From the NCBI RefSeq assembly GCF_000814025.1, contig NZ_JWLL01000003.1, positions 268,334 through 332,333 on the forward strand: a stretch of 64,000 nt of DNA, in the 5' to 3' direction. This DNA is from Tateyamaria sp. ANG-S1 (GTDB lineage Bacteria; Pseudomonadota; Alphaproteobacteria; Rhodobacterales; Rhodobacteraceae). Position numbers and translations under genes: made by a program. Below are positions 8,324-28,583 of this stretch, piece by piece. Every line of letters begins with the position of its first letter. The first letter of the stretch is position 1. Below the pieces are notes generated by a model. That model worked only from the letters and a program-made list of their open reading frames with translations. It ran no database searches and was not told the DNA's origin.

Positions 8324-9556
8324 ATGAAGCTCAAGGACCTCGATATCATCATTACGGCCCCCCCGGCACCAGGTTGGGGCGGGCGCTACTGGATTCTCGT
8401 GAAGCTGACGACAGATGACGGCATCACCGGTTGGGGCGAATGCTACGCTTCCTCCGTCGGGCCGGACGCGATGCGGGCCGTGATCGAGGATGTGTTCTCC
8501 CGCCACATGGCTGCCGAAAACCCCGAAAACATCGAATTGATGTTCCGCCGCGCTTATTCCTCCGGCTTCACCCAACGCCCGGACCTGACAGTCATGGGCG
8601 CCTTTTCGGGGCTGGAAATTGCCTGCTGGGACATCCTTGGCAAGGCGCGTAACCGCCCCGTCTGGGCGCTTCTGGGCGGCAAGATGAACGACCGCATCCG
8701 CGCCTACACCTACCTCTACCCCCTACCCCATCACGGGCTCGACGCCTTCTGGACCTCGCCCGTTCTGGCGGCTGAGGCAGCACTCGATTGCGTCGACCGC
8801 GGCTACACCGCCGTCAAATTCGACCCCGCGGGTCCCTACACGATGCGCGGCGGGCACATGCCGGGAATGCGCGACATCTCCATGTCGGTGGACTTCTGCA
8901 AGGCCATCCGCGAGGCCGTCGCCGACCGCGCCGACCTGCTCTTTGGCACCCACGGCCAGTTCACCACCGCAGGCGCCATCCGTCTCGGGCAGGCGCTCGA
9001 ACCCTATGCCCCGCTCTGGTTCGAGGAACCGATCCCCCCAGACGCGGTCGAGGAAATGGCCAAGGTCGCCCGCGCCGTGCGCATCCCCATCGCCACCGGC
9101 GAGCGCCTCACGACCAAGGCAGAATTCGCCCCCATCCTGCGCAGCGGAGCCGCCACGATCCTGCAACCGGCCCTCGGTCGTGCAGGCGGCATATGGGAGA
9201 TGAAAAAGGTCGCCGCCATGGCCGAGGTCTACAACGCCCAGATGGCCCCCCACCTCTATGCAGGCCCCGTGGAATGGGCCGCCAACATCCACCTCGCCGC
9301 CTCTATCCCGAACCTATTGATGTGCGAAACCATCGAAACGCCCTTCCACGACCAACTGATCAAGGGCAGCATCCGGGTCGAGCGCGGCTTCATCACGCCC
9401 CCCGAGATCCCCGGCCTTGGCATCGACGTTGACGAAGATCTGGCCCGCGCCCACCCGTATACCGGCGACGGCCTGCACCTGCAGATGCAGGAGGCCCCCT
9501 GCGACTACGAACGCGGCAACAACTTCGAGGGCGGCGCGCCCGCTCCGCGCGATTAG
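8324..9556 (+). CDS. Mandelate racemase/muconate lactonizing enzyme family protein
   Basis: 410-residue enolase-superfamily enzyme with an N-terminal capping domain and a C-terminal TIM barrel. Seen: WGGRYWILVKLTTDDGITGWGE near residues 18-39, a barrel lysine in AVKFDPAGP near 163, LFGTHGQFT near 206 (His as possible acid/base), FEEPIPP near 232, ATGERL near 258, and APHLYAGP near 308 (His). The pattern resembles acid-sugar dehydratases (mannonate/galactonate dehydratase-like) more than true mandelate racemases. It is the last gene of the + strand run and overlaps the convergent CIA30 gene by four bases. It could feed the pathway encoded opposite; the exact acid sugar is not predictable. Confidence 0.83.
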   Translation: MKLKDLDIIITAPPAPGWGGRYWILVKLTTDDGITGWGECYASSVGPDAMRAVIEDVFSRHMAAENPENIELMFRRAYSSGFTQRPDLTVMGAFSGLEIACWDILGKARNRPVWALLGGKMNDRIRAYTYLYPLPHHGLDAFWTSPVLAAEAALDCVDRGYTAVKFDPAGPYTMRGGHMPGMRDISMSVDFCKAIREAVADRADLLFGTHGQFTTAGAIRLGQALEPYAPLWFEEPIPPDAVEEMAKVARAVRIPIATGERLTTKAEFAPILRSGAATILQPALGRAGGIWEMKKVAAMAEVYNAQMAPHLYAGPVEWAANIHLAASIPNLLMCETIETPFHDQLIKGSIRVERGFITPPEIPGLGIDVDEDLARAHPYTGDGLHLQMQEAPCDYERGNNFEGGAPAPRD

Positions 9557-10077
9557 CGGTAGAACCGCACACCGGACACGGCAATGTCCGCCTGCATCTC
9601 GCGCCCGATGGCGAGAATACCGATCCGTCGCAACCGGCTCGGGTCGAACGACACATCGGTACGATGCGCCTCAAAAGCAGTGAAGGGAATGCGGAGCGTC
9701 GTCCATTCATCGAGCGCCACAAACTCGGACCGGAACGACTGCCAAGGCCGCGTAAGCGCATCGGTGCGCAGGCGCAGATCATAGGTCTCGCCATTGCCCA
9801 GCACATCCAGCGCCACACCGGCATAGCCGCTCGCATCGAACACAGCGCCGCCCGCCAGATCAAAAGCGATCTGCACAAAGCCACCATTGTTCTCCAGCGA
9901 CACGAGCCCGGTCAGCCGCACAGCCTCCCGCCCCTTAACGACCTCAAACGTGGCCTGCCCCGAAGACACACCACCCATCACCGTGTCAGCCACGTATTCC
10001 CAGTCGGGGCTAAGTTCCAAATCATCCGCCATGACCGGCGAACATAGCAGGGCAAAGGCGATTGCCCAGCGGATCAC
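9553..10077 (-). CDS. CIA30 family protein with signal peptide
   Basis: 174-residue protein with an N-terminal signal peptide (hydrophobic residues 3-17, cleavage after PVMA) and a CIA30 jelly-roll domain over the rest. Seen: the hallmark VMGGVSSG near residue 34 and the C-terminal GILAIGREMQADIAVSGV. CIA30 proteins were named for complex I assembly in mitochondria; bacterial members are often exported and are thought to bind carbohydrate-like ligands. It is the last gene of the long - strand operon and overlaps the RraA-like gene by ATGA. A periplasmic role linked to the imported substrate is inference. Confidence 0.75.
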   Translation of the reverse strand: MIRWAIAFALLCSPVMADDLELSPDWEYVADTVMGGVSSGQATFEVVKGREAVRLTGLVSLENNGGFVQIAFDLAGGAVFDASGYAGVALDVLGNGETYDLRLRTDALTRPWQSFRSEFVALDEWTTLRIPFTAFEAHRTDVSFDPSRLRRIGILAIGREMQADIAVSGVRFYR

Positions 10078-10766
10078 GTCCGCGCCGCCTCGAATACGGC
10101 CCAGACCGCTTCGAACTCCTCAAATCCGATCCGCTTGCCCTTGACCGCATCAAACACGATCTTCTCCGACCGCATCAGCGTCGCGATGGCGTCGGTAAGT
10201 CCAGCCACCACATCCTTCGGGATCACCACGGCCCCATGCCGGTCCGCATGCACCAGATCGCCGGGCCGGATGTCGAGGCCATGGATACGCACCTGCTGGT
10301 CATAATCCACCACATGCACAAACCCATGACTCGGCCCGATAGAGCCAGCAACCACCGGGTACCCCTCTGCCAGATCGCCAAGGTCGCGCATCACCCCGTC
10401 GGTCAGCGTTCCCGCCAGCCCAAATGCCTTGTGAATATTCGTGTTCACCTCACCCCAATAGGCGCCAATAGCATTTGGCACATCCAGATCCTGCACCACG
10501 CAGACCGCCGGACGCGCGCCTTCGGACATGTACTTGTAGTAAGCCATCCGCCGCGCCTTGATCACCTCGGGCGGCTCCGTGGGCGGGGCCAGCGCCCGGA
10601 TCCGGGCCGTGCGCGCATAGCCCACCATCACCCCATCCGGGTCCGACGCCAGCATCGTGCCACGGGTGAAGGCGTTGAACCCCCGCTTGCCCTGCGCGAC
10701 CTCAATGGCATTGCAGACCGTCGGCGTATCCACCGACCTCAGCAGATCATGCAGTGCGTCCTCCAT
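10074..10766 (-). CDS. RraA-like aldolase (HMG/CHA aldolase family)
   Basis: 230-residue RraA/4-hydroxy-4-methyl-2-oxoglutarate aldolase family protein. Seen: YWGEVNTNIHKAFGLAGTLTDG near residues 105-127, the metal/substrate motif DGVMRD (Arg-Asp pair) near 126-131, and GDLVHADRHGAVVIP near 175. Members either cleave 2-oxo-4-hydroxy acids to pyruvate, decarboxylate oxaloacetate, or (RraA proper) inhibit RNase E. The catabolic operon and the Arg-Asp pair favour a lyase. It starts three bases after the MetE-like gene and overlaps the CIA30 gene. The substrate is unknown. Confidence 0.78.
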   Translation of the reverse strand: MEDALHDLLRSVDTPTVCNAIEVAQGKRGFNAFTRGTMLASDPDGVMVGYARTARIRALAPPTEPPEVIKARRMAYYKYMSEGARPAVCVVQDLDVPNAIGAYWGEVNTNIHKAFGLAGTLTDGVMRDLGDLAEGYPVVAGSIGPSHGFVHVVDYDQQVRIHGLDIRPGDLVHADRHGAVVIPKDVVAGLTDAIATLMRSEKIVFDAVKGKRIGFEEFEAVWAVFEAART

Positions 10767-10769
10767 AAC

Positions 10770-11894
10770 TCAGCCCTTCACCATCGCGGCACCCTCGGAC
10801 AGGGCATTCAGCTTGGCATAGGCAATTTCCGGATCGACTGACCCGAAGCCCGCAAAAGTGCCAAACCCACAATCGCTCCCCGCAATCACCCGATCCGCAC
10901 CCACAATCTCCGTAAACCGCTCGATCCGCTGCCGCACGACCTCCGGATGCTCGACAAAGTTCGTGGTGGTATCGACCACGCCCGGCACCAGCACCTTGTC
11001 ATCCGGTATCTCCGCTTTGCGGTTCCGAAACACCGTCCACTCATGCGCATGACGCGGGTTCGACGTCTCGAACAGAACATAGCGCGCCTTGGTCGCCATC
11101 AGCGTGGGAAAGACCGTGTCCATGGGCACATCACACACATGCGGCCCCTCGTAATTGCCCCAGCAGATATGCACCCGTACCTTCTCCGCAGGCACATCCG
11201 CCAGCGCATGGTTCAGCGCCTCCACATGGGCATCCGCGATCTTTACAAACTCCGCATCGCTCAGGTCGTTGAACAACATGTGCCGCGACAGGGCCAAATC
11301 GGGGCAATCCAGCTGCAAATCCAGCCCAGCCCCCACGATCGTCTCATACTCCGCCTTCATCGCATCGGCGAGGGCGGCCAGATAGGCGTCGCGCGTCGGA
11401 TAAAAGTCATTCTGCAAAAACAGCGAAATCACACCGGGCGAGGCTGCATTCATAAACCCGCGCTCAACCCCATGCTTGGCCATCGCTGCCTTGAGGTTCG
11501 CAATGTCCTTCTCCAACTCGCCCTGCCCCTTGGACGTCACCTCACCCGTACACATGGGCCGGGCGTATTGCGGGGTGCCGCCACCCTCGGCCAAGCGCTT
11601 GAGAAAGCTGGGAAACTGCTTCAGATCAGCAGGCGCATTGCGCGGGCTGTCGCCGGAAAACCCGGTATAGCGGTCCTTGACATAGGTCGCATAACTGATC
11701 TTCGACGTCTCGCCATCGCTGACGATATCAACACCCGCCGCCACCTGCTTGGCCACCGTGTCGTCCACCGCCTCGGCCATCGCCGCATCGAAATCAGCCT
11801 GCTCAAACGGCTCCTCCCGCTCGCGGGCAAAGATGAAATCGACGACCTTTTGCGTCCGGGGCAAGGACCCGACATGGGTGGTTGTGACAGGCAT
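10770..11894 (-). CDS. Cobalamin-independent methionine synthase II-like protein
   Basis: 374-residue protein corresponding to the catalytic C-terminal half of MetE. It starts with TTHVGSLPR, typical of the family. The zinc ligands appear conserved: His and Cys in HICWGNYEG near residue 240, Glu in LFETSN near 275, and Cys in GSDCGFG near 342. Without the N-terminal MetE half it is not the housekeeping enzyme. Short MetE relatives include core-MetE proteins and epoxyalkane:coenzyme M transferase, both using a zinc-bound thiolate. In this operon, downstream of a SAM methyltransferase, a thiol- or methyl-transfer step in catabolism is a reasonable inference. Confidence 0.78.
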   Translation of the reverse strand: MPVTTTHVGSLPRTQKVVDFIFAREREEPFEQADFDAAMAEAVDDTVAKQVAAGVDIVSDGETSKISYATYVKDRYTGFSGDSPRNAPADLKQFPSFLKRLAEGGGTPQYARPMCTGEVTSKGQGELEKDIANLKAAMAKHGVERGFMNAASPGVISLFLQNDFYPTRDAYLAALADAMKAEYETIVGAGLDLQLDCPDLALSRHMLFNDLSDAEFVKIADAHVEALNHALADVPAEKVRVHICWGNYEGPHVCDVPMDTVFPTLMATKARYVLFETSNPRHAHEWTVFRNRKAEIPDDKVLVPGVVDTTTNFVEHPEVVRQRIERFTEIVGADRVIAGSDCGFGTFAGFGSVDPEIAYAKLNALSEGAAMVKG

Positions 11895-11905
11895 GGTGGT
11901 CTCCT

Positions 11906-12508
11906 TCAGTCTTTGCGCGCCATCAGCACGGTATGCTGGTTCGCATCGGGGTCTTCGGCCAGAAACCCGGTCAGGCGCAAGCCATTCTCTTCAAGACATG
12001 TGGCATAGCCCGCGGGCGAGAGCGAGGCGTGATAGACCGCCTCATCGCCAACGGTGCCCTCAGCCTCACCTGCGCTTGGCCCAACGGTCAGCATCAAACT
12101 GCCACCGGGTTCCAGATGCGCGGCCATACGCGAGATACAGTCGCGCTGCGCCTCTGCCGTCAGGTGAAAAAAGCTGTTCCAGGCAATGATGCCGTCAAAG
12201 GTCTCGCCCAGATCAAGCACCCGCATATCCGCCTGCCGCCAGTCGCCCTCCGGCCACCGTTCCCGCGCAATCGCCAGCATCGGCTCCGAAAAATCGACAC
12301 CGGTAACGGAAAACCCCTCAGCCATGAACCACCGCGCAATCGGATCGCCCGTACCGCAGCCCAGATCCAGCACCCGTGCCCCGCCGGGCAAGGCCACCGC
12401 AAACCGCGCCAACCACCGCGCCTCGAACAACGCACGGGACCGGCGAGCGTCGTAAACCGCCGCCTGCCGGTCATAGACGCCCTGGATGTCTTCGGGATCG
12501 GCGCTCAC
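11906..12508 (-). CDS. Class I SAM-dependent methyltransferase
   Basis: About 200 residues. Seen: SAM motif I VLDLGCGTGDP near residue 45, motif II GVDFSEPML near 68, and a later motif around FDGIIAWNSFFHL near 103. GTG 12508 is chosen because it overlaps the bicupin stop as GTGA, like the other junctions in this operon; GTG 12517 is an alternative three codons upstream. Soluble small-molecule methyltransferases of this type act on many substrates. It precedes the MetE-like gene by eleven bases. Confidence 0.82.
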   Translation of the reverse strand: MSADPEDIQGVYDRQAAVYDARRSRALFEARWLARFAVALPGGARVLDLGCGTGDPIARWFMAEGFSVTGVDFSEPMLAIARERWPEGDWRQADMRVLDLGETFDGIIAWNSFFHLTAEAQRDCISRMAAHLEPGGSLMLTVGPSAGEAEGTVGDEAVYHASLSPAGYATCLEENGLRLTGFLAEDPDANQHTVLMARKD

Positions 12509-13470
12509 CCTGCCCACGTCGGCCCCGCCGGATCATCCGTGCCCACCACGTGATAGAGCGCCGCCTCGCCCGTCATCGACGGCACGGCGCTATGGGCCAA
12601 GTTCTCCGGCACGCTCATCGTGTCACCGGGCGCCAGCGTCGTGCTGCCACCCTCCCACGTCACCTTCCAATGCCCTTTCACCGGCATCAGGACTGATGGC
12701 TTGTCATGCGCGTGCATGTCATCGCAGGCACTCGAGCGGGTCACCAGATCCACCTCAAACCCCGGCTTGTCCCGAATAATTCCCGTCTCGCCAATCACCT
12801 TGCAGGGCGCGTCCTTAGCCAGACACACCATGTCCCAATACCGGCGCACGCCCATGCCGACGACCTGCATCGGCGACATCTCGGGGAACTCCGTCAACTC
12901 CTCCGCGGTCAGCAACGGCATGGGCCCCACGCCATCAGGCAGGCTCTCCCCCTTCTTGCTGTCATAAAGGCTGCCATTCTCGCCCAGAACCAGCCCATGC
13001 GCGCCCGCCTCCTCGATCACTTGCGGGGCCCAGATCACGCCGCCGCCCGCATCGTCGCCGCCAAGGATCGCCATGATCATCCCGTAGTCGGTGCCGATAT
13101 TCTCGAAACCACGGAAAATACCTGTGGGAATGTTGATGATATCCCCCTCTTCCAGCACGACCTCCCCGGCCTTCCCCCAGCGTCCCCAGAAAAACCGCCA
13201 ACGCCCCGACAGGACAAAGAATACCTCTGCCGTGCGGTGCGAATGCAGCGAATTCCGGCACTTCGGCGGCTGCCCCGCCGCCCCGATGTTGAAGCCGTGC
13301 GGGATCGAAATATGCACGTGCTGATCAGGGCTTTCCGACACCCCGCCCCCGATGATGGTAAAGTTCTCCTTCTGGTCCGACCCCGGCGTGTGCGCGTCGA
13401 TAAACGCGGTCTTGCAGGGCATCAGATCGCCATAACGCACAATGCGCGGCTCCATCTCGGCGGGGGTCAT
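12505..13470 (-). CDS. Bicupin domain protein
   Basis: 321-residue protein with two cupin domains. The first, near residues 60-150, carries the metal-binding motif LHSHRTAEVFFVLSG and a second motif in GDIINIPTG; the second, near 225-310, carries MHAHDKPSVLMPVKG and GDTMSVPENLAHS. This bicupin layout is shared with gentisate-type dioxygenases, but the first-motif Glu spacing and sequence do not identify a specific oxygenase. It is coupled by ATGA to the DUF6653 gene upstream. A metal-dependent isomerase or dioxygenase step on the imported compound is possible. Confidence 0.78.
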   Translation of the reverse strand: MTPAEMEPRIVRYGDLMPCKTAFIDAHTPGSDQKENFTIIGGGVSESPDQHVHISIPHGFNIGAAGQPPKCRNSLHSHRTAEVFFVLSGRWRFFWGRWGKAGEVVLEEGDIINIPTGIFRGFENIGTDYGMIMAILGGDDAGGGVIWAPQVIEEAGAHGLVLGENGSLYDSKKGESLPDGVGPMPLLTAEELTEFPEMSPMQVVGMGVRRYWDMVCLAKDAPCKVIGETGIIRDKPGFEVDLVTRSSACDDMHAHDKPSVLMPVKGHWKVTWEGGSTTLAPGDTMSVPENLAHSAVPSMTGEAALYHVVGTDDPAGPTWAG

Positions 13471-14003
13471 GTGGGGGTCCTTTCATGTGGGAGGGTTGGA
13501 TCGGGCAACGGATCGCCCGGTTTGGAATTGGTGATGTCGGTGTGGATCCAGACCATGCGGTCCACGAACCAGACCTTCGGCAGGATGGTGGCGACCAGCC
13601 CAAGGATTGTCGTCCACGGGTTCAGCACGATCAGGCCATAGATCAGGGGCAACAGACCGATGACGGATAGGGCGACCAACACATGTGCCGGCCGCATGTG
13701 ATGCGCTGCGATGTCATAGCGGTCCCGCGCCAGAAAAATGCGCTCCCCCAGTGTCCCACGCGATGCCCAACTGCCAAAGTCACGGGGCGCAGGAAACGCA
13801 CGCGGGTTCACCCATGTCCACGCTGCGGCCAACAGAAAAAGCGGCAGCGCCCACCCCCCGATCCACTGCCGCGCATAAATCGCCAGCGCGATCAAAGGCA
13901 GGCAAGAAAACCGCGTCCAAAAGCTCCACGGGCTTGCGTGCCGCCGCCAATCAACGTCCTTCATCCCCATCAGACGTTCGGCAGCGCGGTAGATGTCGGT
14001 CAT
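13467..14003 (-). CDS. DUF6653 family membrane protein
   Basis: 178-residue protein with hydrophobic segments near residues 33-42, 48-62 and two between 105 and 140, so probably four membrane segments. The N-terminal HASPWSFWTRF, the WTWVNPRAFP and the WFVDRMVWI motifs match my recollection of DUF6653 proteins, which have no known function. It lies inside the operon with four-base overlaps on both sides, so it is probably co-expressed with the pathway enzymes. Confidence 0.65.
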   Translation of the reverse strand: MTDIYRAAERLMGMKDVDWRRHASPWSFWTRFSCLPLIALAIYARQWIGGWALPLFLLAAAWTWVNPRAFPAPRDFGSWASRGTLGERIFLARDRYDIAAHHMRPAHVLVALSVIGLLPLIYGLIVLNPWTTILGLVATILPKVWFVDRMVWIHTDITNSKPGDPLPDPTLPHERTPT

Positions 14004-14614
14004 GCCTGCCCCTTCAGCGCAGCATTCTCCGCTTCCAACTCGGCAATCCGCGCCTGCAGCTTGTCCATCTCCGGTGCCACAAGCTGCGCGATCTCACCCG
14101 CATCAAAGCGCGGCGTGATGAACTGCGGACAGTTCCAGTCAAAGGCCTCAATCCGGATCGTCACCACCCGCTCAACCCGACCCTGCCCCTCGACAGCCAG
14201 TTGCTCGGCCAGCTCGGGCTCATCATCAGCCTTCGCAAACGTCGCACGCCCCTGCAGCTTCATCCGGGCCTTGCGCGGGTAATCCATCAGAAACAGCGAC
14301 ACCCGGTCATCACCGGCCAGGTTCCCCTCGGAAATGTGCTGCTTGTTCCCGCGATAGTCCGCAAAACCCAACGTGTGATCATCCAGCACCTTCAGAAACC
14401 CGACAGGCCCGCCCCGATGCTGGATGTATGGCCAACCGGTCTCCGACACCGTGCCCATGTAGAACGACGTGCGCGACGTGATGAACGCCACCTCATCCGC
14501 ATTCAGCGCATGCGTCCGCGCCCCATAGCTGCGCGCGTACATCTCGGCAGATCCATCCGCCTCCTGCAGCGCCTTCACGGCATCGGTAAACATCACCTCG
14601 TCATAGCGGCGCAC
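14000..14614 (-). CDS. Pyridoxamine 5'-phosphate oxidase family protein
   Basis: 204-residue flavin-reductase-like split-barrel protein of the PNPOx family. Seen: the barrel segment ADEVAFITSRTSFYMGTVSETGWPYIQHRGG (parts near residues 39-70), GDDRVSLFLMDYP near 100, and a C-terminal coiled-coil-like tail (IAELEAENAAL). The start is GTG 14614 with GAAAGG eight bases upstream. Members bind FMN or F420 and include oxidoreductases and stress proteins. It is 42 bases after the NTF2-like gene and overlaps the DUF6653 gene. Confidence 0.78.
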   Translation of the reverse strand: MRRYDEVMFTDAVKALQEADGSAEMYARSYGARTHALNADEVAFITSRTSFYMGTVSETGWPYIQHRGGPVGFLKVLDDHTLGFADYRGNKQHISEGNLAGDDRVSLFLMDYPRKARMKLQGRATFAKADDEPELAEQLAVEGQGRVERVVTIRIEAFDWNCPQFITPRFDAGEIAQLVAPEMDKLQARIAELEAENAALKGQA

Positions 14615-14656: not shown

Positions 14657-15625
14657 TCAGCCGGTCTGCAACAAGATCTGCTTCCAGATCGCCGTCTCAT
14701 CAAAGAGCGCATATTCCCGGCGCAGGCCCCAAGGCCCGAACTCGGCATGAGAAATGCCCAGAACATAGACCTCAGCCCCCGTCGGCGCGCCAAAATACCC
14801 CCACCCATCATGTTTGCCATGCAGGCTCCATCGGATGGCGGCCCGGGGCGGCATCATCTCATCATCCCGCCCAATCTGGTGATCAATGGTGAACGTTGCA
14901 TCCGGGAACGACGCCCGCAGTCCCATCCAGAAACGATCTACCGGCCCTGTCCCATGCCCGGTCAGCCCGCCGGGATACTCCGACTGCACCGCCCGGTCAT
15001 ACTCGCCGGGAATGACGGCCATATCGGCCCCCATGATCCGCGTCAGAATGTCGGCGTACCTCGCGCCCCACTCATTGTCATTGCCGCGCCCCTTGTAGGG
15101 CCCAGGCTGATCCGTCGCATGGCTCAGAGGACGCACCGCGTTTTCCATCCCACCCTCACGCTCGATCAGATCAGCAGCATAGGCCTTCGCCTCCCACCCG
15201 ATCTGGTTCACGATGGCCGTCTGGTCGCGGATCAACCACTCATCGTTGATCTGATCATTGATGGCATGACAGTCCGCAATAATTCGGTACTGCAGCGTCT
15301 TGCCAGATGCCTTGCCATAGACACCATCCGCCATGTGCGTCGCCGTCGACAGGATGCGGTGCGACGACAGCATCCCCTCTTCCGGCGTCCCGCTCCAGAT
15401 CACATCTTCACCCAGCAGCGTCCGGTCCGGAAATTCGGCGAGCGTCGCCATGGTGGCCCCAATCACCTTCTCGTTCCCAATCACCACCGAACCGGGCGAC
15501 CGCACCACGATGCCCGGGCTGTAATAGTGATGCAGGGTCGCGATGCCGCGATCCTCCCAGATCTCCTTGGTGATGCCGATGATATAGTCGGGGAAGTCCT
15601 TCCACCGGTTCGAAAAACCCTTCAT
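14657..15625 (-). CDS. SnoaL/NTF2-like protein, probable tandem domains
   Basis: 322-residue protein made of two NTF2-like alpha+beta cone domains, roughly residues 10-160 and 180-320. Domain 1 includes IVVRSPGSVVIG and IADCHAINDQINDEWLIRDQ; domain 2 includes RFWMGLRASFPDATFTIDHQ and the tail REYALFDETAIWKQIL. ATG 15625 is preferred because it forms an ATGA overlap with the LacI stop and has AAAGGA eight bases upstream; ATG 15634 is possible. It is more divergent than the other NTF2-like proteins of the cluster. Family members are cyclases, isomerases, dehydratases or ligand carriers; the reaction here is unknown. Confidence 0.75.
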   Translation of the reverse strand: MKGFSNRWKDFPDYIIGITKEIWEDRGIATLHHYYSPGIVVRSPGSVVIGNEKVIGATMATLAEFPDRTLLGEDVIWSGTPEEGMLSSHRILSTATHMADGVYGKASGKTLQYRIIADCHAINDQINDEWLIRDQTAIVNQIGWEAKAYAADLIEREGGMENAVRPLSHATDQPGPYKGRGNDNEWGARYADILTRIMGADMAVIPGEYDRAVQSEYPGGLTGHGTGPVDRFWMGLRASFPDATFTIDHQIGRDDEMMPPRAAIRWSLHGKHDGWGYFGAPTGAEVYVLGISHAEFGPWGLRREYALFDETAIWKQILLQTG

Positions 15626-20786: not shown

Positions 20787-21317
20787 TCAGTTGTCGGGGC
20801 GCGGCGGTGTCTTGTCGCCGCGATCGAAGGCTTCCCAGCCTTCACCATCAAAAACGTCCCGCCCCAGCTGGGCGAGCACGTGGGGGAAATCGACCATCAC
20901 GTAGTTGTCGGTGATGCGGCCGTCTTCGACCTTCCAGAAATCCATGTACCGGATCTCGATCCGCTTGCCGGTGGGCGCAATCCCCATGAACTCACCAGCA
21001 TGGGTGGCCTCCTGTCGGCCAAAGGCGGCGGCCCACTCGCCCATATACAGCCGGGCTTCGTCCACGCAGACCTTGTCGGCGAAGGCGGCCTGGAACGGGC
21101 GCTGCCAGTTGTCCTGGAACTGCTGCAGGCCCGTCTTGGTGCCGCAGCCGGTGTTGCCCATCCAGCGGAAACTTTCGGCAAAGAACTGGCCGATATCGTC
21201 AATGCGGTGGTCGTTGAGACCATCGACCATCCCTTCGATTACAGCGCGGGTGTCTTCCGTTTTGGACATATCCGTATCGCGGGTCAGAACCGCCTGTTCC
21301 GGTCGGGAACCTTTCAT
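20787..21317 (-). CDS. SnoaL-like ester cyclase (single NTF2 domain)
   Basis: 176-residue single-domain NTF2-like protein. Seen: the helix IEGMVDGLNDHRIDDIGQFF near residues 28-47, GEFMGIAPTGKRIEIRYMDF near 108-127 and DNYVMVDFPHVLAQLGRDVF near 138-157. The last matches the ENWVxxD motif of the larger paralogues. The start could be ATG 21317 or ATG 21269; 21317 is used because a GA-rich stretch precedes it while 21269 has no visible ribosome-binding site. It sits between the ABC permease genes and the histidinol-dehydrogenase-like gene, nine bases before the latter. Confidence 0.8.
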   Translation of the reverse strand: MKGSRPEQAVLTRDTDMSKTEDTRAVIEGMVDGLNDHRIDDIGQFFAESFRWMGNTGCGTKTGLQQFQDNWQRPFQAAFADKVCVDEARLYMGEWAAAFGRQEATHAGEFMGIAPTGKRIEIRYMDFWKVEDGRITDNYVMVDFPHVLAQLGRDVFDGEGWEAFDRGDKTPPRPDN

Positions 21318-21388: not shown

Positions 21389-22540
21389 TCATCCCTTCAC
21401 CGCACCTGCCGTGAGGCCCGATACGATCTGGCGTTGGAAGACCATGACCAGCAGGAACAATGGGGCGGTGATGGACACCGCTGCCGCCACCGCTTCGACC
21501 TGATCCGTCGTGGTGGTTTCGCGGTTGAAGTAGCCTGCGATGGCCGGGACCATTGTCTGGTTCTGGGCGTCGAGCAGCAGGGCCGTGACGAGGAAGTCGT
21601 TGTAGCCAAGAAGAAAGCTGAAGAGGCCCGTGGTGATCACCCCCGGCCACATGACCGGCATGATCACGCGGCGGAACGCCTGGAAATGCGAGCAGCCGTC
21701 AACGCGCGCCGCCTCGTCCAGTTCGGACGGGATGTTCTGGAAGAACGACCGCAGCATCCAGATGGTAAAGGGCTGGTTGATCGCCACCAGCACCGCGATG
21801 ATCGCCCAGGGCTGGCCGTAAAGCGTGGGGCTGAGGTCGCCCAGGATCGGACGCAGGATTTCCGCCGAGTTGATGAACCACGGCAGATAGCCGGCCACTA
21901 GCACAGAGTGCGGCAGGGCACGGAAGACAAGTGCGATGATCAGGAGCCAGAAGGCGAGGTTCGAGCCGGAGCGCGCGAGGCCGTAGCCTGCCAGCGTGCC
22001 CACGGTGAGCGATACGGTCACCACGCCTGCCGTCACGATCATGGAGTTGATGAAGTTGCGGTAGAACTGGTTTTCCGCCCAGACCGCCACGTAGTGCTCG
22101 GTCGTCAGGCCGAGGATGGGTGTGCCAAGCGGCCCCGCGATGCTGTTGAGTGCGCCGAAGATCACGGGCAGTGCGCCGAAGAAGATTAGCACGAACAGCA
22201 GGCCGTAGACGGCTGCACCAACAAGCCAGCCCAACACGATGAAGCCGGGGGGCGAGAATTGCTCGACCAACCGGGACAGCTTTGTGAAAGCCCAGCGGAT
22301 CGCGAAGTACAGCACGATCAGCCCCAGCAGAATGTCGAGGAAGCTGAGCCCGTTGCCCGCCGCCCGCGTGGCGGGTCCGGTGATCACGTTCCACGCGCTG
22401 GCGTCGAAGGCGTCGCGCGGGGACTTCACGCTCATCACCGCGATCCAGGCGATGGGGAAGGCTGCGATCAGGCACCAGAAGGCGAGGAACGCGCCCGATG
22501 CAAGCTTGAGCGACAGCGGCTGTGCGGTGGCTTTTGACAT
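21389..22540 (-). CDS. ABC transporter permease, MalG/UgpE type
   Basis: 383-residue inner-membrane permease of a carbohydrate-type ABC importer. The EAA loop that docks on the ATPase is visible as EAARVDGCSHFQAFRRVIMP near residues 285-304. The protein is about 100 residues longer than a typical MalG: an extra segment with two or three hydrophobic stretches (roughly residues 60-150) lies between the first helix and the conserved core. Its ATG directly follows the TAG stop of the partner permease. It works with the neighbouring permease, binding protein and ATPase. Confidence 0.88.
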   Translation of the reverse strand: MSKATAQPLSLKLASGAFLAFWCLIAAFPIAWIAVMSVKSPRDAFDASAWNVITGPATRAAGNGLSFLDILLGLIVLYFAIRWAFTKLSRLVEQFSPPGFIVLGWLVGAAVYGLLFVLIFFGALPVIFGALNSIAGPLGTPILGLTTEHYVAVWAENQFYRNFINSMIVTAGVVTVSLTVGTLAGYGLARSGSNLAFWLLIIALVFRALPHSVLVAGYLPWFINSAEILRPILGDLSPTLYGQPWAIIAVLVAINQPFTIWMLRSFFQNIPSELDEAARVDGCSHFQAFRRVIMPVMWPGVITTGLFSFLLGYNDFLVTALLLDAQNQTMVPAIAGYFNRETTTTDQVEAVAAAVSITAPLFLLVMVFQRQIVSGLTAGAVKG

Positions 22541-23569
22541 CTAGTGTGCCCCCCCTTTGTGGTCGCGCCAGGTGCGGCGCAGCGGCAGGATCAGCAGGAT
22601 CACGATGCCCACCATGGTCAGCATGGCGCTGGCGGCGGCCCGGCTGATCGCCCGGTTGCCCGCGTCATCCGGTGTCAGGAAGTCGAAGGTCAGCCATTGC
22701 AGCGAGATGACATGCGCCTGGCTGCGGAAGCCGATGATCTCGTCGAAGACGCGGTAGCAGTCCATCAGGTGGATCAGTGCGATGAAGATGATCAGCGGCA
22801 TCAGGTGCGGCACGATCACATAGCGCAGCCGTTCAAAGCGGCTGGCGCCATCGATGATCGCGCTTTCCAGCGTGTCCATGTTCACCGTTTGCAGGCCCGC
22901 GTAGAAGATCACGAAGGCGAAGGGCGCGACGTGCCAGACGCGGTAGAAATACATGAGCAGTTCGATGGTCCAAGCCTGCGCGAACATGGCGATGTCCTGG
23001 CCCGTCCAGCGTTCGAGCGTGGCCGTGAGGATGCCGTCACCCACGAAGAGCCAGTAGATCGACAGTGACCCGATGACCGGCGTGATGATGAAGGGCAGCA
23101 GCGAGACGAAGATCACTGGGCCACGCAAGGACTTGGCGGCGTTGTTGACTGCGAGCGCGATCATGAGACCCACACCGATCACCAGCGGCAAGGTCACGAG
23201 CGTGAACATCAGGGTGAACCGCAGGGCCTTCCAGAAGTCGATTTGCAGGATCTCGCCCCAATTGCCGGACCCGATGGCGGACCAGAATTTATCCATTTGC
23301 AGCACGTTCTGGTAGCTTTGAAAGCCGACCCAGGCGGTGGTGGTTTCGGTGCGTCCGGTTTCTTCATTGATGACGGGCACCGTCTTGACCTCGGTCACGC
23401 AGGTCTGGGTGAGGAAGCCCGGGGTGCAGGTCTCGACCTCGATCTGCTGCATCACGGGCTGGGTGATCTGGAAGGACTGGATGAAAACCGAGATCAGGGG
23501 GGCCGCGATGAACAAGAGCATCATGAAGACCGACGGGGCCACGAACCAGAAGAAGGTTTTGAACTTCAT
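22541..23569 (-). CDS. ABC transporter permease, MalF/UgpA type
   Basis: 342-residue inner-membrane permease. One helix at residues 8-32 is followed by a periplasmic stretch of about 70 residues holding a Cys pair (Cys48 and Cys57), then the membrane core. The EAA loop appears as ESAIIDGASRFERLRYVIVP near residues 232-251. Its ATG overlaps the stop of the GMC oxidoreductase gene by four bases, tying transport and catabolism into one transcript. The extended periplasmic loop may contact the binding protein. Confidence 0.88.
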   Translation of the reverse strand: MKFKTFFWFVAPSVFMMLLFIAAPLISVFIQSFQITQPVMQQIEVETCTPGFLTQTCVTEVKTVPVINEETGRTETTTAWVGFQSYQNVLQMDKFWSAIGSGNWGEILQIDFWKALRFTLMFTLVTLPLVIGVGLMIALAVNNAAKSLRGPVIFVSLLPFIITPVIGSLSIYWLFVGDGILTATLERWTGQDIAMFAQAWTIELLMYFYRVWHVAPFAFVIFYAGLQTVNMDTLESAIIDGASRFERLRYVIVPHLMPLIIFIALIHLMDCYRVFDEIIGFRSQAHVISLQWLTFDFLTPDDAGNRAISRAAASAMLTMVGIVILLILPLRRTWRDHKGGAH

Positions 23570-25071
23570 GCTGCTTTCCTTGTCGCTGCGGCGGCCACAT
23601 GGCCTCCGATCTGCCAGCCAATCATCATGGATGGGGCGTTGGTGTTGGCGCTGGTGATGCGCGGCATGACCGAGGCATCGGCTACCCAGAGGTTGTCCAC
23701 GCCTTTGACCGCACCCTGCGCATCGAGCGGGCCACCGAGGGCGACGGTGCCGACGGGGTGGTAGGCGGTGCCTGCTCGCGTGCGGATCACTTCGCGGAGG
23801 GCGGCGCCGGTGATATGGGTGCCCGGGAAGCCCTCGGGTGCGCGGCGGTGTTCGAAGGGAGCGGCATCAAGCAGCGCGCGCAGGCGTTCGACACCCTTCA
23901 CCATCATGCCGAGGTCCCAGTCGTCGCCGAACAGGTTGAGGTCGATAAGGGGTTGGAAACGGTCGGTGCCCATGCGCAACCGGCCACGTGAGCGGGGTTG
24001 GCACAGGCAGACATCGGCGAAGTAGCCCGATCCCCAGATGATCGCGCGGCCCTGCCAGCCCATCAGGAAGGGCAGGAAATGGGTCTGGATGTCAGGCGCG
24101 TCGCTGTCGGTGACGCTGTAGAAGGCGCCCGCCTCGACCGTGTTGGAGCTGAGCCGCCCGGAGCGCGCGAAGAGCCATTGGAATGGGGACAGTGCCCATG
24201 CCGGGAGCTGACCAAGGGTCAGACCATAACCCGACCCCTGCCCCTTGAAATGCAGGCCGAAACCTGGGTGGTCGTGCAGGTTTGCACCCACGCCGGGCGT
24301 GTCGATGCGCACGTCGATGCCTGCGGCTTTCAGGTCTACGCCCGGTCCGATGCCGGAGCGCATGAGGATCATTGGGCTTTCGATGCTGCCTGCCGACAGG
24401 ACAACGCTCGCCCGCGCAGTCAAGGTGCGCCCGTCGCGCAGAACGACGCCCGTAGCACGGGTGCTGTCGAAGGTGACGTGGTCTACCTCGGCGTCCGTGA
24501 TCACGTCCGCACCGGATGGCCGCAGGAACCCGTCGGCGGCTGACCAGCGCGCGCCGCCCCTCATGTTGGTGTGGAACACGCCCGCGCTTTTCCGTTCCGG
24601 CGTGGGCGGGGCGTGCGGGTCGTTGGCTGGGAAGACGCGGCCGAACGCTTCGGACAGGGGGTGCGGGTGCGGCAGGCGGTCGGGTGTCATCCGCGCCTCG
24701 ACCGCGTCGAAAGCCCGCCAGACCGCCGCGCTGTCCCATCCGGGCAGGCCCCAGGTGTCGAAATCAGCGCGGGTGCCACGGAACCAGACCATAGAATTGA
24801 TCGAGCCCGACCCGCCCAGCATCTTGCCGCGCGGGACGGACACTTGCCGGTTGCCAGCCGATGCCATGGGTACAGTTTGCCGCTTCCAGTTGCGGCGGTC
24901 GGAGGCCAAAAGGTTCACAAGAGCAAAGGGCACCTTGACCCGGATGTCCCGATCGGACGGCCCCGCCTCGACCACGCACACCTTTGCGCCCGGTCGTTCG
25001 GCAAGACGCGCGGCCACCGCGCATCCAGCAGAGCCACCGCCCACAACGATATGATCGTATTCACGTGTCAT
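23566..25071 (-). CDS. GMC family FAD-dependent oxidoreductase
   Basis: 501-residue glucose-methanol-choline oxidoreductase. Seen: FAD-binding IVVGGGSAGCAVAARLAE near residues 8-25, GKMLGGSGSINSMVWFRG near 80-97, the GMC signature around LSAGSIESPMILMRSGIG near 250, the catalytic His in AYHPVGTV near 440 and the C-terminal SANTNAP. MTREYDH at 25071 is the start, with GGGGGA just upstream; an in-frame extension to 25209 lacks any family similarity. It lies inside the transporter operon, between the binding-protein and permease genes, so it probably oxidises the imported alcohol or sugar. Confidence 0.9.
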   Translation of the reverse strand: MTREYDHIVVGGGSAGCAVAARLAERPGAKVCVVEAGPSDRDIRVKVPFALVNLLASDRRNWKRQTVPMASAGNRQVSVPRGKMLGGSGSINSMVWFRGTRADFDTWGLPGWDSAAVWRAFDAVEARMTPDRLPHPHPLSEAFGRVFPANDPHAPPTPERKSAGVFHTNMRGGARWSAADGFLRPSGADVITDAEVDHVTFDSTRATGVVLRDGRTLTARASVVLSAGSIESPMILMRSGIGPGVDLKAAGIDVRIDTPGVGANLHDHPGFGLHFKGQGSGYGLTLGQLPAWALSPFQWLFARSGRLSSNTVEAGAFYSVTDSDAPDIQTHFLPFLMGWQGRAIIWGSGYFADVCLCQPRSRGRLRMGTDRFQPLIDLNLFGDDWDLGMMVKGVERLRALLDAAPFEHRRAPEGFPGTHITGAALREVIRTRAGTAYHPVGTVALGGPLDAQGAVKGVDNLWVADASVMPRITSANTNAPSMMIGWQIGGHVAAAATRKAA

Positions 25072-25126: not shown

Positions 25127-26347
25127 TTATTCGAGCACACCGGCCTCTTTGGCCGACGTGGTGTAAGCTTCTTCGATGGCGACCAGCGTGGCCTCTGCCC
25201 CGCGCTCACCGGTCAGGAAGGCGGGCAGTTCATTGCCCAGAGCCGTGTGCAGCAGACCCATCTGCGTGGTCGACGGGTACGCAGGCGGGGCCGGGTTGGC
25301 GGTGGCCGTTGCAACTGCACCTTCGGCGAGCGGGCCGGGCTCATAGCCCTGCACCAGCCAGATGGCGGCCTCATTGGCGCCCTGCACCATTTCGGCGTCC
25401 ATGCCTTCCATCGCGAGGCGGAAGGCGGCGTCTGCTTCCTCATCCGTGATATTGGCCGCGATCACGATACCGTCCCACCAGAGCGTGGTGGCCGGCGCGC
25501 CGCCGTCCATCGCCATCGGGGCTGCGGCCATGGAGACCTTGCCCACAACGGTGCTTTCGTTTTCGTCATTCATCGCACCCGCGCGGCTGGCCCAGAGATT
25601 CGCCATGGCGATCTTGCCCTGCTGGAACTGCTGCTGCACGTAGGTCGAGTCGCTGACCAGAACCTCCGGGTCGGTGAACTCAAGCGTGCGCTTCATGGTG
25701 TCGAGCGCCTTCATCCCCGCCTCGGAATTTACGGCGGTGGTGTTGTCGGCGTTGAAGAACGCGCCGCCAAAGCCGGGATACATGTTCACGAATTCCTGCG
25801 CGAGGTTCCAGCCGGACTTCATGGTCGCACCGATGGCGTGGTCAACGACGCCCGCTTCTTCGATCTTCTCGGCGGCGGCGAACACCTCGTCCCATGTGCT
25901 GGGCGTCTCGATGCCCAGATCGGCAAGGATATCGCTGCGGTACATCAGGTGCTGCGTGTTCACCATCATGGCGACGGCCATGATCTGACCATCCACGCGG
26001 ATCAGCTGGTTGGGCGACAGGTTCTGGCCGTACTTTTCGACCAGATCGTCCAGCGGGCGGATCGTGCCTGCGTTCAGGAGCGGTGTGATGGTGCCGTTCG
26101 ACACGCCGCCGATGTGGTAGAGCGACGGGTTCGCTTCGAACGCAGCGGGCTGCTTGGTGCGGAATTCCTGGTCCAGCTCGGCCTGGAAATTGCCGCACTC
26201 GGCCATGGCATCAGTGACGGCCTTCCAGGCTTCAAAGCCCGCGGTCAGCGACTTCAACGGCACCTCGTTTTCGTAGGAACACGCGGCAAAGGCCGTGCTA
26301 CCCAAAAGCGAGACGGCGCCCGCAAGTGCCAGTTTTTTCAGATACAT
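25127..26347 (-). CDS. ABC transporter extracellular solute-binding protein
   Basis: 406-residue periplasmic binding protein of the family-1 (MalE/UgpB-like) type. Seen: a signal peptide MYLKKLALAGAVSLLG ending at AFAAC, SLYHIGGVSNGTITPLLN near residue 90, and MANLWASRAGAM near 235. The ATG at 26347 has AGGGAGT upstream; earlier in-frame starts would bury the signal peptide. A Cys follows the AFA site, so lipid attachment is possible though the lipobox is imperfect. It delivers the substrate to the two permeases. Family-1 proteins bind mono- and oligosaccharides, polyols or glycerol phosphates. Confidence 0.9.
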   Translation of the reverse strand: MYLKKLALAGAVSLLGSTAFAACSYENEVPLKSLTAGFEAWKAVTDAMAECGNFQAELDQEFRTKQPAAFEANPSLYHIGGVSNGTITPLLNAGTIRPLDDLVEKYGQNLSPNQLIRVDGQIMAVAMMVNTQHLMYRSDILADLGIETPSTWDEVFAAAEKIEEAGVVDHAIGATMKSGWNLAQEFVNMYPGFGGAFFNADNTTAVNSEAGMKALDTMKRTLEFTDPEVLVSDSTYVQQQFQQGKIAMANLWASRAGAMNDENESTVVGKVSMAAAPMAMDGGAPATTLWWDGIVIAANITDEEADAAFRLAMEGMDAEMVQGANEAAIWLVQGYEPGPLAEGAVATATANPAPPAYPSTTQMGLLHTALGNELPAFLTGERGAEATLVAIEEAYTTSAKEAGVLE

Positions 26348-26438: not shown

Positions 26439-26445
26439 GGGTTCC

Positions 26446-27492
26446 TCAGGCGAGACGTTCGCCGGAAGAGGAATCGAATGCGTGGCAGATTTCTGCCGGG
26501 ACCGAGAAGGACACGGTGTCGCCGATCTCGGCCCGGAATTCCTTGTGCGCCTTGATCGACACAAGCTGCCCGCCTGCGCGGACGGTGAGCATGGTGGCGT
26601 CACCCAAAAGCTCGATGGTGTAGATGGGGGCGGTGATCTGCGCCTCATCCTCCGCCAATGCGGCGTCTTCGGCGCGGAAGCCGAGCGTGGCAGGGCCATC
26701 GGGCGCGGTGAGGCCGCTGATCGATACGTTGTCGCCGGTGAAGGTGCCGCCCGCCATCGTCCCCTCCATCAGGTTCATGGCGGGGGAGCCAATAAAGCTG
26801 GCCACGAAGGTGTTGGCGGGGCGGTCGTAAATTTCCGTAGGCGTGCCCACCTGCTGCACCTTGCCCTGCTTCATCACCACCACGCGGTCGGCGAGGGTCA
26901 TCGCCTCGATCTGGTCGTGGGTCACGTAGACGGTTGTCACCTTCAGCTCGTGGCTGAGGTTCTTGATCTGGGCGCGGGTCGAGACGCGCAGCTTGGCGTC
27001 GAGGTTCGACAGCGGCTCGTCCATCAGGAACACGTTGGGTTCGCGCACGATGGCGCGGGCAAGGGCTACGCGCTGGCGTTGGCCACCCGACAGTTCGGCG
27101 GGCTTGCGGTGCAGGAAATCATCAAGCTCCACCATGGCCGAGGCGCGGCGCACGCGGTCGTCATGGGTGGCCGGGTCAACCTTGCGGACCTTCAGCGGGA
27201 AGCGGATGTTTTCGTAGACATTCAGGTGCGGATAGAGGCCGTAGGACTGGAAGACCATCGCCACATCGCGGTCCTTGGGGTCCAGATCATTGACCCGCTT
27301 GCCGTCGATCATAATGTCGCCTTCGGTCGCGTCCTCCAGCCCCGCGATCATGCGCATCGTCGTGGTCTTGCCGCAGCCCGAGGGGCCGAGCAGCACCAAG
27401 AACTCCTCGTCCGCGATCGTCAGGTCGAAATTGTCGACGCCCACGAACGTGCCCCACCGTTTGTTGATGTTGCGCAGCTGGATTTCTGCCAT
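26446..27492 (-). CDS. ABC transporter ATP-binding protein, UgpC/MalK type
   Basis: 348-residue ATPase of a carbohydrate-type ABC importer. Seen: Walker A GPSGCGKTTT near residues 36-45, signature LSGGQRQRVALARAI near 133-147, Walker B VFLMDEPLSNLD near 152-163, the switch His in TVYVTHDQ near 190, and a C-terminal MalK-like regulatory region from about 235. It is the first gene of the long - strand operon and drives the permease pair encoded downstream. It follows a divergent promoter region with a strong palindrome. Confidence 0.93.
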   Translation of the reverse strand: MAEIQLRNINKRWGTFVGVDNFDLTIADEEFLVLLGPSGCGKTTTMRMIAGLEDATEGDIMIDGKRVNDLDPKDRDVAMVFQSYGLYPHLNVYENIRFPLKVRKVDPATHDDRVRRASAMVELDDFLHRKPAELSGGQRQRVALARAIVREPNVFLMDEPLSNLDAKLRVSTRAQIKNLSHELKVTTVYVTHDQIEAMTLADRVVVMKQGKVQQVGTPTEIYDRPANTFVASFIGSPAMNLMEGTMAGGTFTGDNVSISGLTAPDGPATLGFRAEDAALAEDEAQITAPIYTIELLGDATMLTVRAGGQLVSIKAHKEFRAEIGDTVSFSVPAEICHAFDSSSGERLA

Positions 27493-27522
27493 GTGGACCC
27501 CCGACCCATAGGTTGATGAAAT

Positions 27523-27552
27523 AGGCTAGACATCCGGGCTTTGACTTGGCAA
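27523..27552 (-). promoter_or_regulatory. Candidate promoter of the ABC/catabolic operon
   Basis: Read on the - strand: a -35-like TTGCCA (27547-27552), an 18-bp spacer and a -10-like TAGCCT (27523-27528), about 30 bases before the ATPase start. The match to sigma-70 consensus is moderate. The 20-bp palindrome lies five bases upstream of the -35. Confidence 0.45.
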
Positions 27553-27557
27553 CTGTT

Positions 27558-27577
27558 TTTTGCACACGTGTGCAAAA
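27558..27577. promoter_or_regulatory. Perfect 20-bp palindrome, candidate LacI operator
   Basis: TTTTGCACACGTGTGCAAAA is a perfect inverted repeat with the central CG typical of LacI-family operators. It sits between the divergent ABC operon (starting at 27492) and the NTF2-like gene (starting at 27597). It would overlap the -10 region of a + strand promoter with TTGACT at 27541-27546. The only LacI-family gene in the window (15622-16641) lies in the operon it would control. I noticed no second copy. Confidence 0.65.
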
Positions 27578-27596
27578 CGACTTCAGGACTGCACCC

Positions 27597-28583
27597 ATGA
27601 CCTCCGTTATTCCTGCGCTGCGGGCGGCACTGCATGCGCTTTGGGCAGATGATGATGCTGCGGCGCGGCGGGCCTTCGAAGGCTGCTTTGCGCACGATTG
27701 CGCCTTTTATTTCTCGCATCCCGCGAATGAGCCACGTGATGCCTGGGCCGAGGTTTACGCCCCATTGCGTGCTGCACTGCCGCATGCGCGGCGGCGCGAT
27801 GAAATTTTCATCGCAGGGGCCAACAGGCGGGAGGTTGGCGGTCAGTGGATCGCCGCATTCACGCACTATGCGGGCACGTTTGCCGCGCCTTTGTGGAACA
27901 TTGCGCCGTCGAATCGGCTGGCCTTTCTGCGGTCAGGCGAGTTTTACCGGGTCGAGGGCGGCCAGATCATCGAGGCGCGGATCATCCTCGACCTGCCGGA
28001 CCTGATGCGGCAGGCGGGGCATGATCCATTTGGTGAATTGCTCGGCACCGAGATGCTGTTTCCGGGGCCAGCCACCCATGACGGGATCCTGCCGGCGGGC
28101 GATGGGGTCAAAAGCCTGGACCTGATCGAAGCGATGCTGGGTGATCTGCATATCTACGACCCCGAAACCGGTACCTCCAAGGGTCAGACCGGAGAGGGCG
28201 GATACTGGGCCGATGACATGTTGTGGTACGGGCCCGGCGGGATCGGGTCGAACTATCGCTGGGAGGGGTTTGTCAAAGATCACCGTGCGCCCTTCCTTGC
28301 CGCCTTTCCCGACCGCAAGGGCGGCAATCACTACGCGCGGATTGGACAAGGCAACTACGCCGCCATCTCGGGCTGGCCTTCCATGACGATGACGCATCGC
28401 GGCCCTTATCTGGGCGTAGAGCCAACGGGTAAATCGCTGACGCTGCGGGTGATGGACTTCTACCGCTGCGCAGACGGTCAGATCGCCGAGAACTGGGTCA
28501 TGCTCGACTACATGGACCTGTTCCACCAGATGGGCATTGACCTGATTGCCAAATCAAACGCCCAAGCCGTTTCTTCTGACTGA
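27597..28583 (+). CDS. SnoaL/NTF2-like tandem-domain protein
   Basis: 328-residue paralogue of the proteins at 17396 and 18442. Two NTF2-like domains occupy about residues 5-145 and 180-320. Seen: AAFTHYAGTFAAPLWNIAPS in domain 1, LWYGPGGIGSNYRWEGF and ENWVMLDYMDLFHQMGIDLI in domain 2. ATG 27597 is chosen because the upstream in-frame start at 27546 would place the palindrome inside the coding region. It is transcribed divergently from the ABC operon and probably shares its operator. No function is known. Confidence 0.8.
   Translation: MTSVIPALRAALHALWADDDAAARRAFEGCFAHDCAFYFSHPANEPRDAWAEVYAPLRAALPHARRRDEIFIAGANRREVGGQWIAAFTHYAGTFAAPLWNIAPSNRLAFLRSGEFYRVEGGQIIEARIILDLPDLMRQAGHDPFGELLGTEMLFPGPATHDGILPAGDGVKSLDLIEAMLGDLHIYDPETGTSKGQTGEGGYWADDMLWYGPGGIGSNYRWEGFVKDHRAPFLAAFPDRKGGNHYARIGQGNYAAISGWPSMTMTHRGPYLGVEPTGKSLTLRVMDFYRCADGQIAENWVMLDYMDLFHQMGIDLIAKSNAQAVSSD

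Follow-up and report, generated by a model that had tools for sequence, protein, structure and literature searches.

A conserved, LacI-linked operon rich in SnoaL proteins in Tateyamaria sp. ANG-S1 and other marine bacteria, and its possible substrates

Background

According to excerpts of PMC11382572, enzymes of the histidinol dehydrogenase (HisD) family carry an alcohol through to the acid within one enzyme, and motifs distinguish two of its members: G-R-Y-A/S-H with the sulfonate-binding His126 in HpsN, and G-S-A-P-L in HisD. A review (PMC3083659) relates a suggestion that Vibrio harveyi converts shinorine and porphyra-334 into mycosporine-glycine by hydrolysis, and it cites bacterial formation of 4-deoxygadusol. 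Here we analyse an operon of Tateyamaria sp. ANG-S1 that joins a HisD-like dehydrogenase to an ABC importer and five SnoaL proteins. It lies in a 64,000-nucleotide stretch of contig NZ_JWLL01000003.1 (positions 268,334 to 332,333), called the window, to which the coordinates below refer. About fifteen genes, common to many marine bacteria, look like one import-and-breakdown system for a small methoxylated ring compound.

The operon proves to be real and conserved and, within the literature searched, undescribed. The original prediction, made from the letters of the window, knew of no described pathway with this gene set. Our searches on SnoaL/ester cyclase proteins, HisD, related operons and the catabolism of mycosporine-like amino acids (MAAs) likewise returned no such pathway at the level of titles and abstracts, mostly outside subscription journals, and the consulted part of PMC12405062 held nothing on MAA catabolism.

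Conservation as one operon

The list of open reading frames (ORFs) in the window holds 19 minus-strand genes, from 27492 down to 9553, and one divergent plus-strand gene, SNe (SNa to SNe, HIS, CUP and ABH are labels coined in this analysis). Every family named in the original prediction (ABC importer, GMC, Histidinol_dh, SDR, LacI, Meth_synt_2, methyltransferase, Cupin_2, RraA-like and five SnoaL) was recovered above its Pfam cut-off among the 20 window proteins. Genome contigs were scanned with an alignment of double-SnoaL proteins, giving at least 594 stretches with 585 relatives among them. The best 80 loci were kept and their ORFs were assigned to window proteins by best BLAST hit. Selection was by SNb alone, and the counts are conditional on it. 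At least five of the 14 other core genes were present in 67/80 of the SNb-picked loci and at least eight in 60/80; three loci (L069, L077 and L093) had none of them.

Per-gene counts were taken from the 55 of 80 loci that are at least 20 kb long, the 25 shorter ones being left out. Among the importer genes, the binding protein was found in 48, permease 1 and permease 2 in 49 each and the ATPase in 45. The binding protein and both permeases stood together in 48/55 of these SnoaL-selected loci; NTF2-like genes and importer do co-occur, which agrees with the single LacI-linked uptake and catabolic operon that had been predicted. SNa was found in 50 loci, SNd in 46 and an SNe-type gene in 43. SNc was found in 0, its best matches (52% in L056, 43% in L039) lying in shorter loci. 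HIS and the LacI gene were each present in 45, the bicupin CUP in 43, the MetE-like gene in 39, the SDR gene in 34 and the RraA-like gene in 27. An alpha/beta hydrolase (ABH), absent from the window's operon, was present in 32/55. The methyltransferase (MT) gene occurs in 8 loci, GMC in 2, and PNPOx, DUF6653 and CIA30 in 1 each, and the last four are local extras. GMC, originally cast as a core oxidation step, is ruled out as a core enzyme by these counts, and they give no support to the other three as core genes. Nor need GMC supply an aldehyde, since HisD-family enzymes, in the excerpts of PMC11382572, go from alcohol to acid unaided.

The association is also seen from the side of the bicupin: among its best 30 matches, with the window's own locus (L094) excluded, SNa lies inside a 4-kb stretch in 25/29. 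Where SNb stands nearly alone, in the genomes of L080 and L093, HIS, SDR, CUP and MetE-like genes are grouped on another contig, and the L060 genome has its MetE-like gene and ABH together on another contig. A MetE-like match was found in 7/10 chosen genomes. Pfam searches of 20 proteins (19 from other genes of divergent loci) found mainly transport, regulatory and FAD-oxidoreductase genes. Taken together, it is near certain that the core is a single catabolic unit.

Beyond Rhodobacterales, where the operon is conserved, it occurs in further Alpha-, Beta- and Gammaproteobacteria and in SAR324 records, and a haloarchaeon has a reduced relative. Much of the set occurs in records titled SAR324, Thiotrichaceae, Oceanospirillaceae, Comamonadaceae, Halomonas and several Hyphomicrobiales, many of them metagenome-assembled genomes, and the sources of relatives include coral, algae and a saltern archaeon. 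Plasmid records of Ruegeria, Paracoccus, Octadecabacter and Marinovum carry much the same genes; with several copies on plasmids, the set is portable whatever the substrate. The operon probably serves a common marine compound.

A shared operator and the importer

A putative operator had been predicted at the divergent promoter, and the sequence found there between SNe and the ATPase gene, TTTTGCACACGTGTGCAAAA at 27558-27577 (unstranded), is a perfect palindrome of LacI type. Its 16-mer core, TTGCAnnCGnnTGCAA, has its exact match in the window at this promoter. Across 93 loci (1.86 Mb) the core has 81 exact sites, spread over 53 loci, and 61 of these sites lie where the ATPase gene starts; three mononucleotide shuffles of the 93 loci gave zero. 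Two operator copies lie 50-60 bp apart in 25 loci, and loci L001-L093 include 47 pairs in which an SNe-type gene is divergent to the gene for the ATPase or the binding protein. The Tateyamaria genome has 2 exact sites of a slightly narrower operator pattern, one being the window site. Only exact sites were used, because a window search allowing two mismatches gave 2 hits against 4.43 expected, which is chance level.

The operon's own LacI-family regulator (15622-16641, minus strand as are all genes below except SNe; PF00356/PF13377) presumably binds 27558-27577. With it stand all parts of a CUT1-type importer operon: an ATPase of UgpC/MalK type (26446-27492; PF00005; NF008653 at 452.9 bits, cut-off 432), a CUT1-type binding protein (25127-26347; PF01547, SBP_bac_1) with weak PDB relatives including 5iai and SmoF (7nbz), permease 1 (22541-23569) and permease 2 (21389-22540), both PF00528, and the predicted operator.

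Enzymes of the core

The HisD-like dehydrogenase HIS (19449-20777; PF00815) passes the TIGR00069 hisD cut-off (434 against 243.8 bits), yet its nearest solved structures are sulfopropanediol dehydrogenases of HpsN type (399 bits), with histidinol dehydrogenases next at 255 bits. Its motif, G-K-F-P-M, matches neither that of HpsN nor that of HisD. Among 74 HIS and HIS2 sequences, KFPM was found in 67 (61 under a stricter motif expression), RYPL in 3 (the sister group HIS2), KYPL in 1 and GYPM in 1, with no match in 2. H254, E319, H320, D353 and H413, the catalytic Glu-His pair and Zn-type residues, are conserved in at least 97% of 72 sequences. Since GKFPM differs from both motifs while the catalytic residues are retained, HIS looks like a third HisD subfamily, probably with the same alcohol-to-acid chemistry on a different substrate. 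A role in histidine biosynthesis is ruled out by the motif and the operon context. The Tateyamaria genome has a separate HpsN-type relative (47%, motif GGRYSH, at L154:7678-8985) adjoining an alcohol-dehydrogenase-like gene, and this pair is probably the true pathway for degradation of 2,3-dihydroxypropane-1-sulfonate (DHPS). A further HisD-family relative (37%, motif VPGGLATY) lies on contig C31, with one TAG inside the match. The SDR oxidoreductase (16641-17399; PF13561) is nearest to gluconate/KduD-type enzymes.

All five SnoaL proteins exceed the PF07366 gathering score of 28.4 bits. SNa (14657-15634, a distinct group in the alignment), SNb (17396-18445), SNc (18442-19446) and SNe (27597-28583, plus strand) have double-domain length, about 325-350 aa, and SNd (20787-21317) is a single domain of 176 aa. 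The structural model of SNb (mean pLDDT 91) can be matched along its full length, with poor superposition, to MonB and Lsd19, two-domain epoxide hydrolases of NTF2 type, and it matches single SnoaL-type domains well. One further, lone double-SnoaL gene was seen in the same genome (C29:446824-447801) among regulatory and transport genes, closest (46%) to a Vibrio SNe.

The MetE-like Zn methyltransferase-fold protein (10770-11894; PF01717, Meth_synt_2) retains H242, C244, E276 and C342, which we take to be the Zn ligands (His, Cys, Glu, Cys) of MetE, in at least 97% of 67 sequences. It falls short of the NCBIfam methionine-synthase cut-off (95.3 against 406 bits). In Novosphingobium pentaromativorans, the genes around its 50% relative code for an NTF2 protein, an aminomethyltransferase, methylenetetrahydrofolate reductase (MetF), PurU, FolD, LigA and a class III extradiol dioxygenase, which we read as a likely O-demethylation setting. 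A relative in Halobellus sits in a SnoaL cluster, and the gene contexts of relatives in Rhodococcus, Halobaculum and Pantoea were uninformative.

The nearest fold to the model of the bicupin CUP (12505-13470; PF07883, Cupin_2; mean pLDDT 83) is quercetin dioxygenase YxaG, closely followed by oxalate decarboxylases, Mn-binding MncA, hydroxyanthranilate and salicylate dioxygenases and plant vicilins. With TM-scores of about 0.45, the modelled match indicates a fold class, not a function. H76, H78, E82 and R120 are invariant in an alignment of 22 sequences. The RraA-like aldolase/decarboxylase (10074-10766) passes PF03737 (64.7 against 24.5 bits). The motif of its superfamily is acidic-x20-R-D; the window protein has E106-x20-R127-D128, and E-x20-RD is found in 42/42 sequences.

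Variants and related clusters

Three Vibrio records examined carry SnoaL members, one of them with the importer. This one, Vibrio pelagius, has four double-SnoaL genes adjoining genes for sarcosine oxidase, PurU and L-serine ammonia-lyase, and in Vibrio europaeus SNe lies near L-serine ammonia-lyase and transporters. Halobellus limi has the importer, an aldehyde dehydrogenase, five SnoaL genes and a MetE-like gene, and a sister group in Labrenzia, Martelella, Alloyangia and Sinorhizobium has an extra amidase. A Klebsiella cluster holds LacI, HisD-like, SDR, MFS, hydrolase, HpcH (aldolase) and cupin genes.

Cupin, HpcH-type aldolase and alpha/beta hydrolase form a recurrent module (L124, L126, L127, L128 and L130), accompanied by HisD-like genes in Novosphingobium and Klebsiella and by 3-oxo-tetronate kinase in Thioclava, Ensifer and Vibrio plasmids. 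An Amidohydro_2 gene (e.g. L032:1382-2260) occurs in 27/123 loci, directly downstream of an SNe-type gene in 22; its nearest PDB entry is 4dlf, which we take to be a sugar lactonase. A search of the Tateyamaria genome for this gene found none at E 1e-10, in a run without positive control. Genes of SBP56 type (selenium-binding protein), presumably methanethiol-oxidase-like, lie near SnoaL clusters in Phaeobacter (L012:13777-15174) and Marinovum (L009:21554-22951).

Candidate substrate

Gene content, conservation as a unit, the shared operator and the retained catalytic residues are directly evident in the sequences compared; the substrate has to be argued from them. The ring of an MAA bears an O-methyl group, one or two amino acids and, between two ring carbons, a carbon with OH and CH2OH. 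Because the gene set offers one activity for each of these features (C-N bond, O-methyl, CH2OH and the ring itself), we tentatively propose that the substrates are small methoxylated, amino-acid-bearing ring compounds, most likely MAAs or gadusols, at a rough probability of 0.35.

Under this proposal the CUT1-type importer would take up the MAA, and SnoaL proteins would hydrolyse imine or enaminone C-N bonds, freeing glycine, serine or threonine, or would dehydrate or isomerise the ring. The MetE-like Zn protein would transfer the ring O-methyl to a thiol, HIS would oxidise the ring CH2OH to COOH with NAD+, and the bicupin would open the enediolone ring oxidatively, helped in other species by the alpha/beta hydrolase. 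RraA-type aldolases act on 4-carboxy-4-hydroxy-2-oxoadipate (CHA); the 6-deoxygadusol ring would yield this compound, which such an aldolase could split into pyruvate and oxaloacetate. If the CH2OH of gadusol stayed unoxidised, this cleavage would instead release 3-oxo-tetronate, and the kinase variants would be in keeping with that. Of the scheme first suggested, uptake, HisD-like oxidation and aldol-type cleavage remain plausible steps; it held no role for the conserved MetE-like protein, and its GMC step is not core.

Some neighbouring genes would suit the release of serine or glycine. L-serine ammonia-lyase was found in 4/93 loci (L008, L013, L081 and L092), directly adjoining a SnoaL gene in L081 and L092, and GcvP in 4/93 (L036, L065, L073 and L092, the last cut by the locus end). 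Gene identity was checked for the ammonia-lyase in L081 and L092 and for GcvP in L036, L065 and L073; L008 and L013 rest on record annotation. Among 15 genomes, which by choice include those of five serine/GcvP loci, the two genes were present in 10/15 and 13/15 respectively, as one full-length copy where present. Also in favour of MAAs are the hydrolysis suggested for Vibrio harveyi in PMC3083659, next to the SnoaL members of the three Vibrio records, and the coral, algal and saltern sources of relatives.

Several observations weigh against MAAs or gadusols. The serine and glycine genes are few, and they came to attention within a group of 22 recurrent flanking families; two of the serine cases were judged from Vibrio plasmids alone, and L065 and L073, each titled as a Rhodobacteraceae single-cell-type record, may be closely related. 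In Vibrio sp. THAF191d, SNe occurs alone with transporters and without a serine gene nearby, and no serine- or glycine-type amino-acid gene was seen beside the window's operon. GcvT-like neighbours, considered as pathway demethylases, fall in a cluster (12 loci) that mixes GcvT, DmdA and sarcosine-type genes, including demethylases for dimethylsulfoniopropionate (two tested, one annotated) and one sarcosine oxidase. The Klebsiella set of HisD-like, SDR, hydrolase, aldolase and cupin genes has no SnoaL or MetE-like member, and the cupin-HpcH-hydrolase genes of Thioclava, Ensifer and Vibrio go with 3-oxo-tetronate kinase, so part of the pathway serves other substrates. The bicupin has an Arg (R120) where the fourth ligand, a His, is expected, and its fold matches are distant (TM about 0.45). 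The RraA-like protein lies far under the NCBIfam cut-offs for LigK and CHA aldolases (26.4/179 and 25.3/304.5 bits) and has E where the LigK-type motif (D-x20-RD) has D.

If the proposal holds, the operon would be a gene-level bacterial sink for UV sunscreens of algae, corals and fish eggs, with new roles for several enzyme families. The bicupin is found in 168/394 sampled genomes of the host family (E <=1e-40), so the trait may be widespread; this tally is of the bicupin alone and not of complete operons, and it may include a few other bicupins, with matches near 1e-46 to 1e-50. The larger claim, that this would be the first gene-level pathway for bacterial and, in reduced form, archaeal MAA/gadusol breakdown, comprising a new HisD-type dehydrogenase, a MetE-like O-demethylase, SnoaL C-N hydrolases and a ring-opening bicupin dioxygenase, is the more doubtful one.

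Alternative explanations

MAAs or gadusols lead among the readings considered. Second, as a possible though still doubtful one that follows the original prediction, comes a substrate resembling a sugar or polyol, which might be branched (apiose- or hamamelose-type) or carry O-methyl groups. It would be oxidised by the SDR and HisD-like enzymes and cleaved by RraA or HpcH. CUT1 importers and LacI regulators are typical of sugars, the kinship of the SDR points the same way, related clusters carry 3-oxo-tetronate kinase with aldolase genes, and the presumed lactonase gene stands beside SNe in many loci. Such a substrate, however, would not require the MetE-like protein, the dioxygenase-like bicupin or the four to five SnoaL proteins, and the core has neither kinase nor glycosidase. 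A third candidate is a methoxylated aromatic compound, or a glycoside of one, whose demethylation and ring cleavage would lead to a gallate-type intermediate: the Novosphingobium relative lies in an O-demethylation, LigAB-type cluster, the bicupin resembles quercetin, salicylate and hydroxyanthranilate dioxygenases in fold, and an RraA family member is present. The core, however, lacks both an aromatic hydroxylase and a LigAB gene, phenolics are not usually imported by CUT1 systems, and we know of no HisD-like enzyme for aryl alcohols; an aromatic substrate is unlikely.

The structures closest to HIS, together with an SDR partner reminiscent of HpsO, would suggest degradation of DHPS or another C3-sulfonate, with HIS acting as HpsN. 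HIS lacks the G-R-Y-A/S-H motif and its sulfonate-binding His, the genome has its separate GRYSH copy, and the operon has no sulfo-lyase; the motif and the second copy together rule this pathway out as a candidate, and we give it hardly any weight. Equally improbable is a biosynthetic, polyketide-like cluster whose SnoaL proteins cyclise the product. It is brought to mind by the SnoaL family name and by fold hits to IdmH, AclR, MonB and Lsd19, but no synthase or activating enzyme is present, the importer genes are among the most conserved neighbours, and a LacI gene and operator accompany them.

Gene order and surroundings

Some gene bounds differ from those first given: SNe starts at ATG 27597 and not at TTG 27546, SNb spans 17396-18445, and GMC starts near 25071. 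Junctions had been described as mostly ATGA overlaps. This type (-4 nt) accounts for only 6/18, with -13 to 11 nt at 8 and 42-98 nt at 4; the tight packing stands, as four of the non-ATGA junctions also touch or overlap (0, -1, -13 and -13 nt). The local extras are the GMC oxidoreductase (23566-25071; PF00732/PF05199), the PNPOx-like flavoprotein (14000-14614; PF01243), the DUF6653 protein (13467-14003; PF20358) and the CIA30-domain protein (9553-10077; PF08547); the occasional SAM-dependent methyltransferase MT lies at 11906-12517 (PF13649). Convergent with the operon end, at 7160-9556, are a Zn alcohol dehydrogenase gene and an enolase-superfamily (mandelate racemase-like) gene. Both are kept beside the operon in the Tateyamaria locus L014, and the SAR324 locus L035 holds a 53% relative of the latter. 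A tRNA scan of the window found none.

Relation to known systems

HpsN (PDB 8v35, 8wwe) shares HisD-family sequence, the catalytic Glu-His pair and the Zn-type residues with HIS; it has GRYA/SH where HIS has GKFPM, and the genome holds an HpsN-type copy besides. The double-domain epoxide hydrolases Lsd19 and MonB resemble SNb in their two tandem NTF2-type domains. They differ from it in sequence (12-16% identity) and in superposition (full-length rmsd about 16-18), and the context of SNb is catabolic. Cobalamin-independent methionine synthase (core MetE, PF01717) has the Zn ligand set H-x-C...E...C also seen in the MetE-like protein, which departs from it in scoring far below the cut-off and in occurring in catabolic clusters. 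Quercetin 2,3-dioxygenase YxaG has a two-cupin fold with H-x-H-x3-E in domain 1, as does the window bicupin; identity is 16% at a TM-score of about 0.46, and the bicupin differs in its Arg at the fourth ligand position and in a less conserved second domain. The RraA family includes aldolases for tertiary-alcohol aldols. The LigK/RraA-type CHA aldolase of the protocatechuate 4,5 pathway belongs to the same family as the window protein and would share a tertiary-alcohol aldol substrate with it if the model holds, whereas the window protein scores below the LigK models and carries E-x20-RD in place of D-x20-RD.

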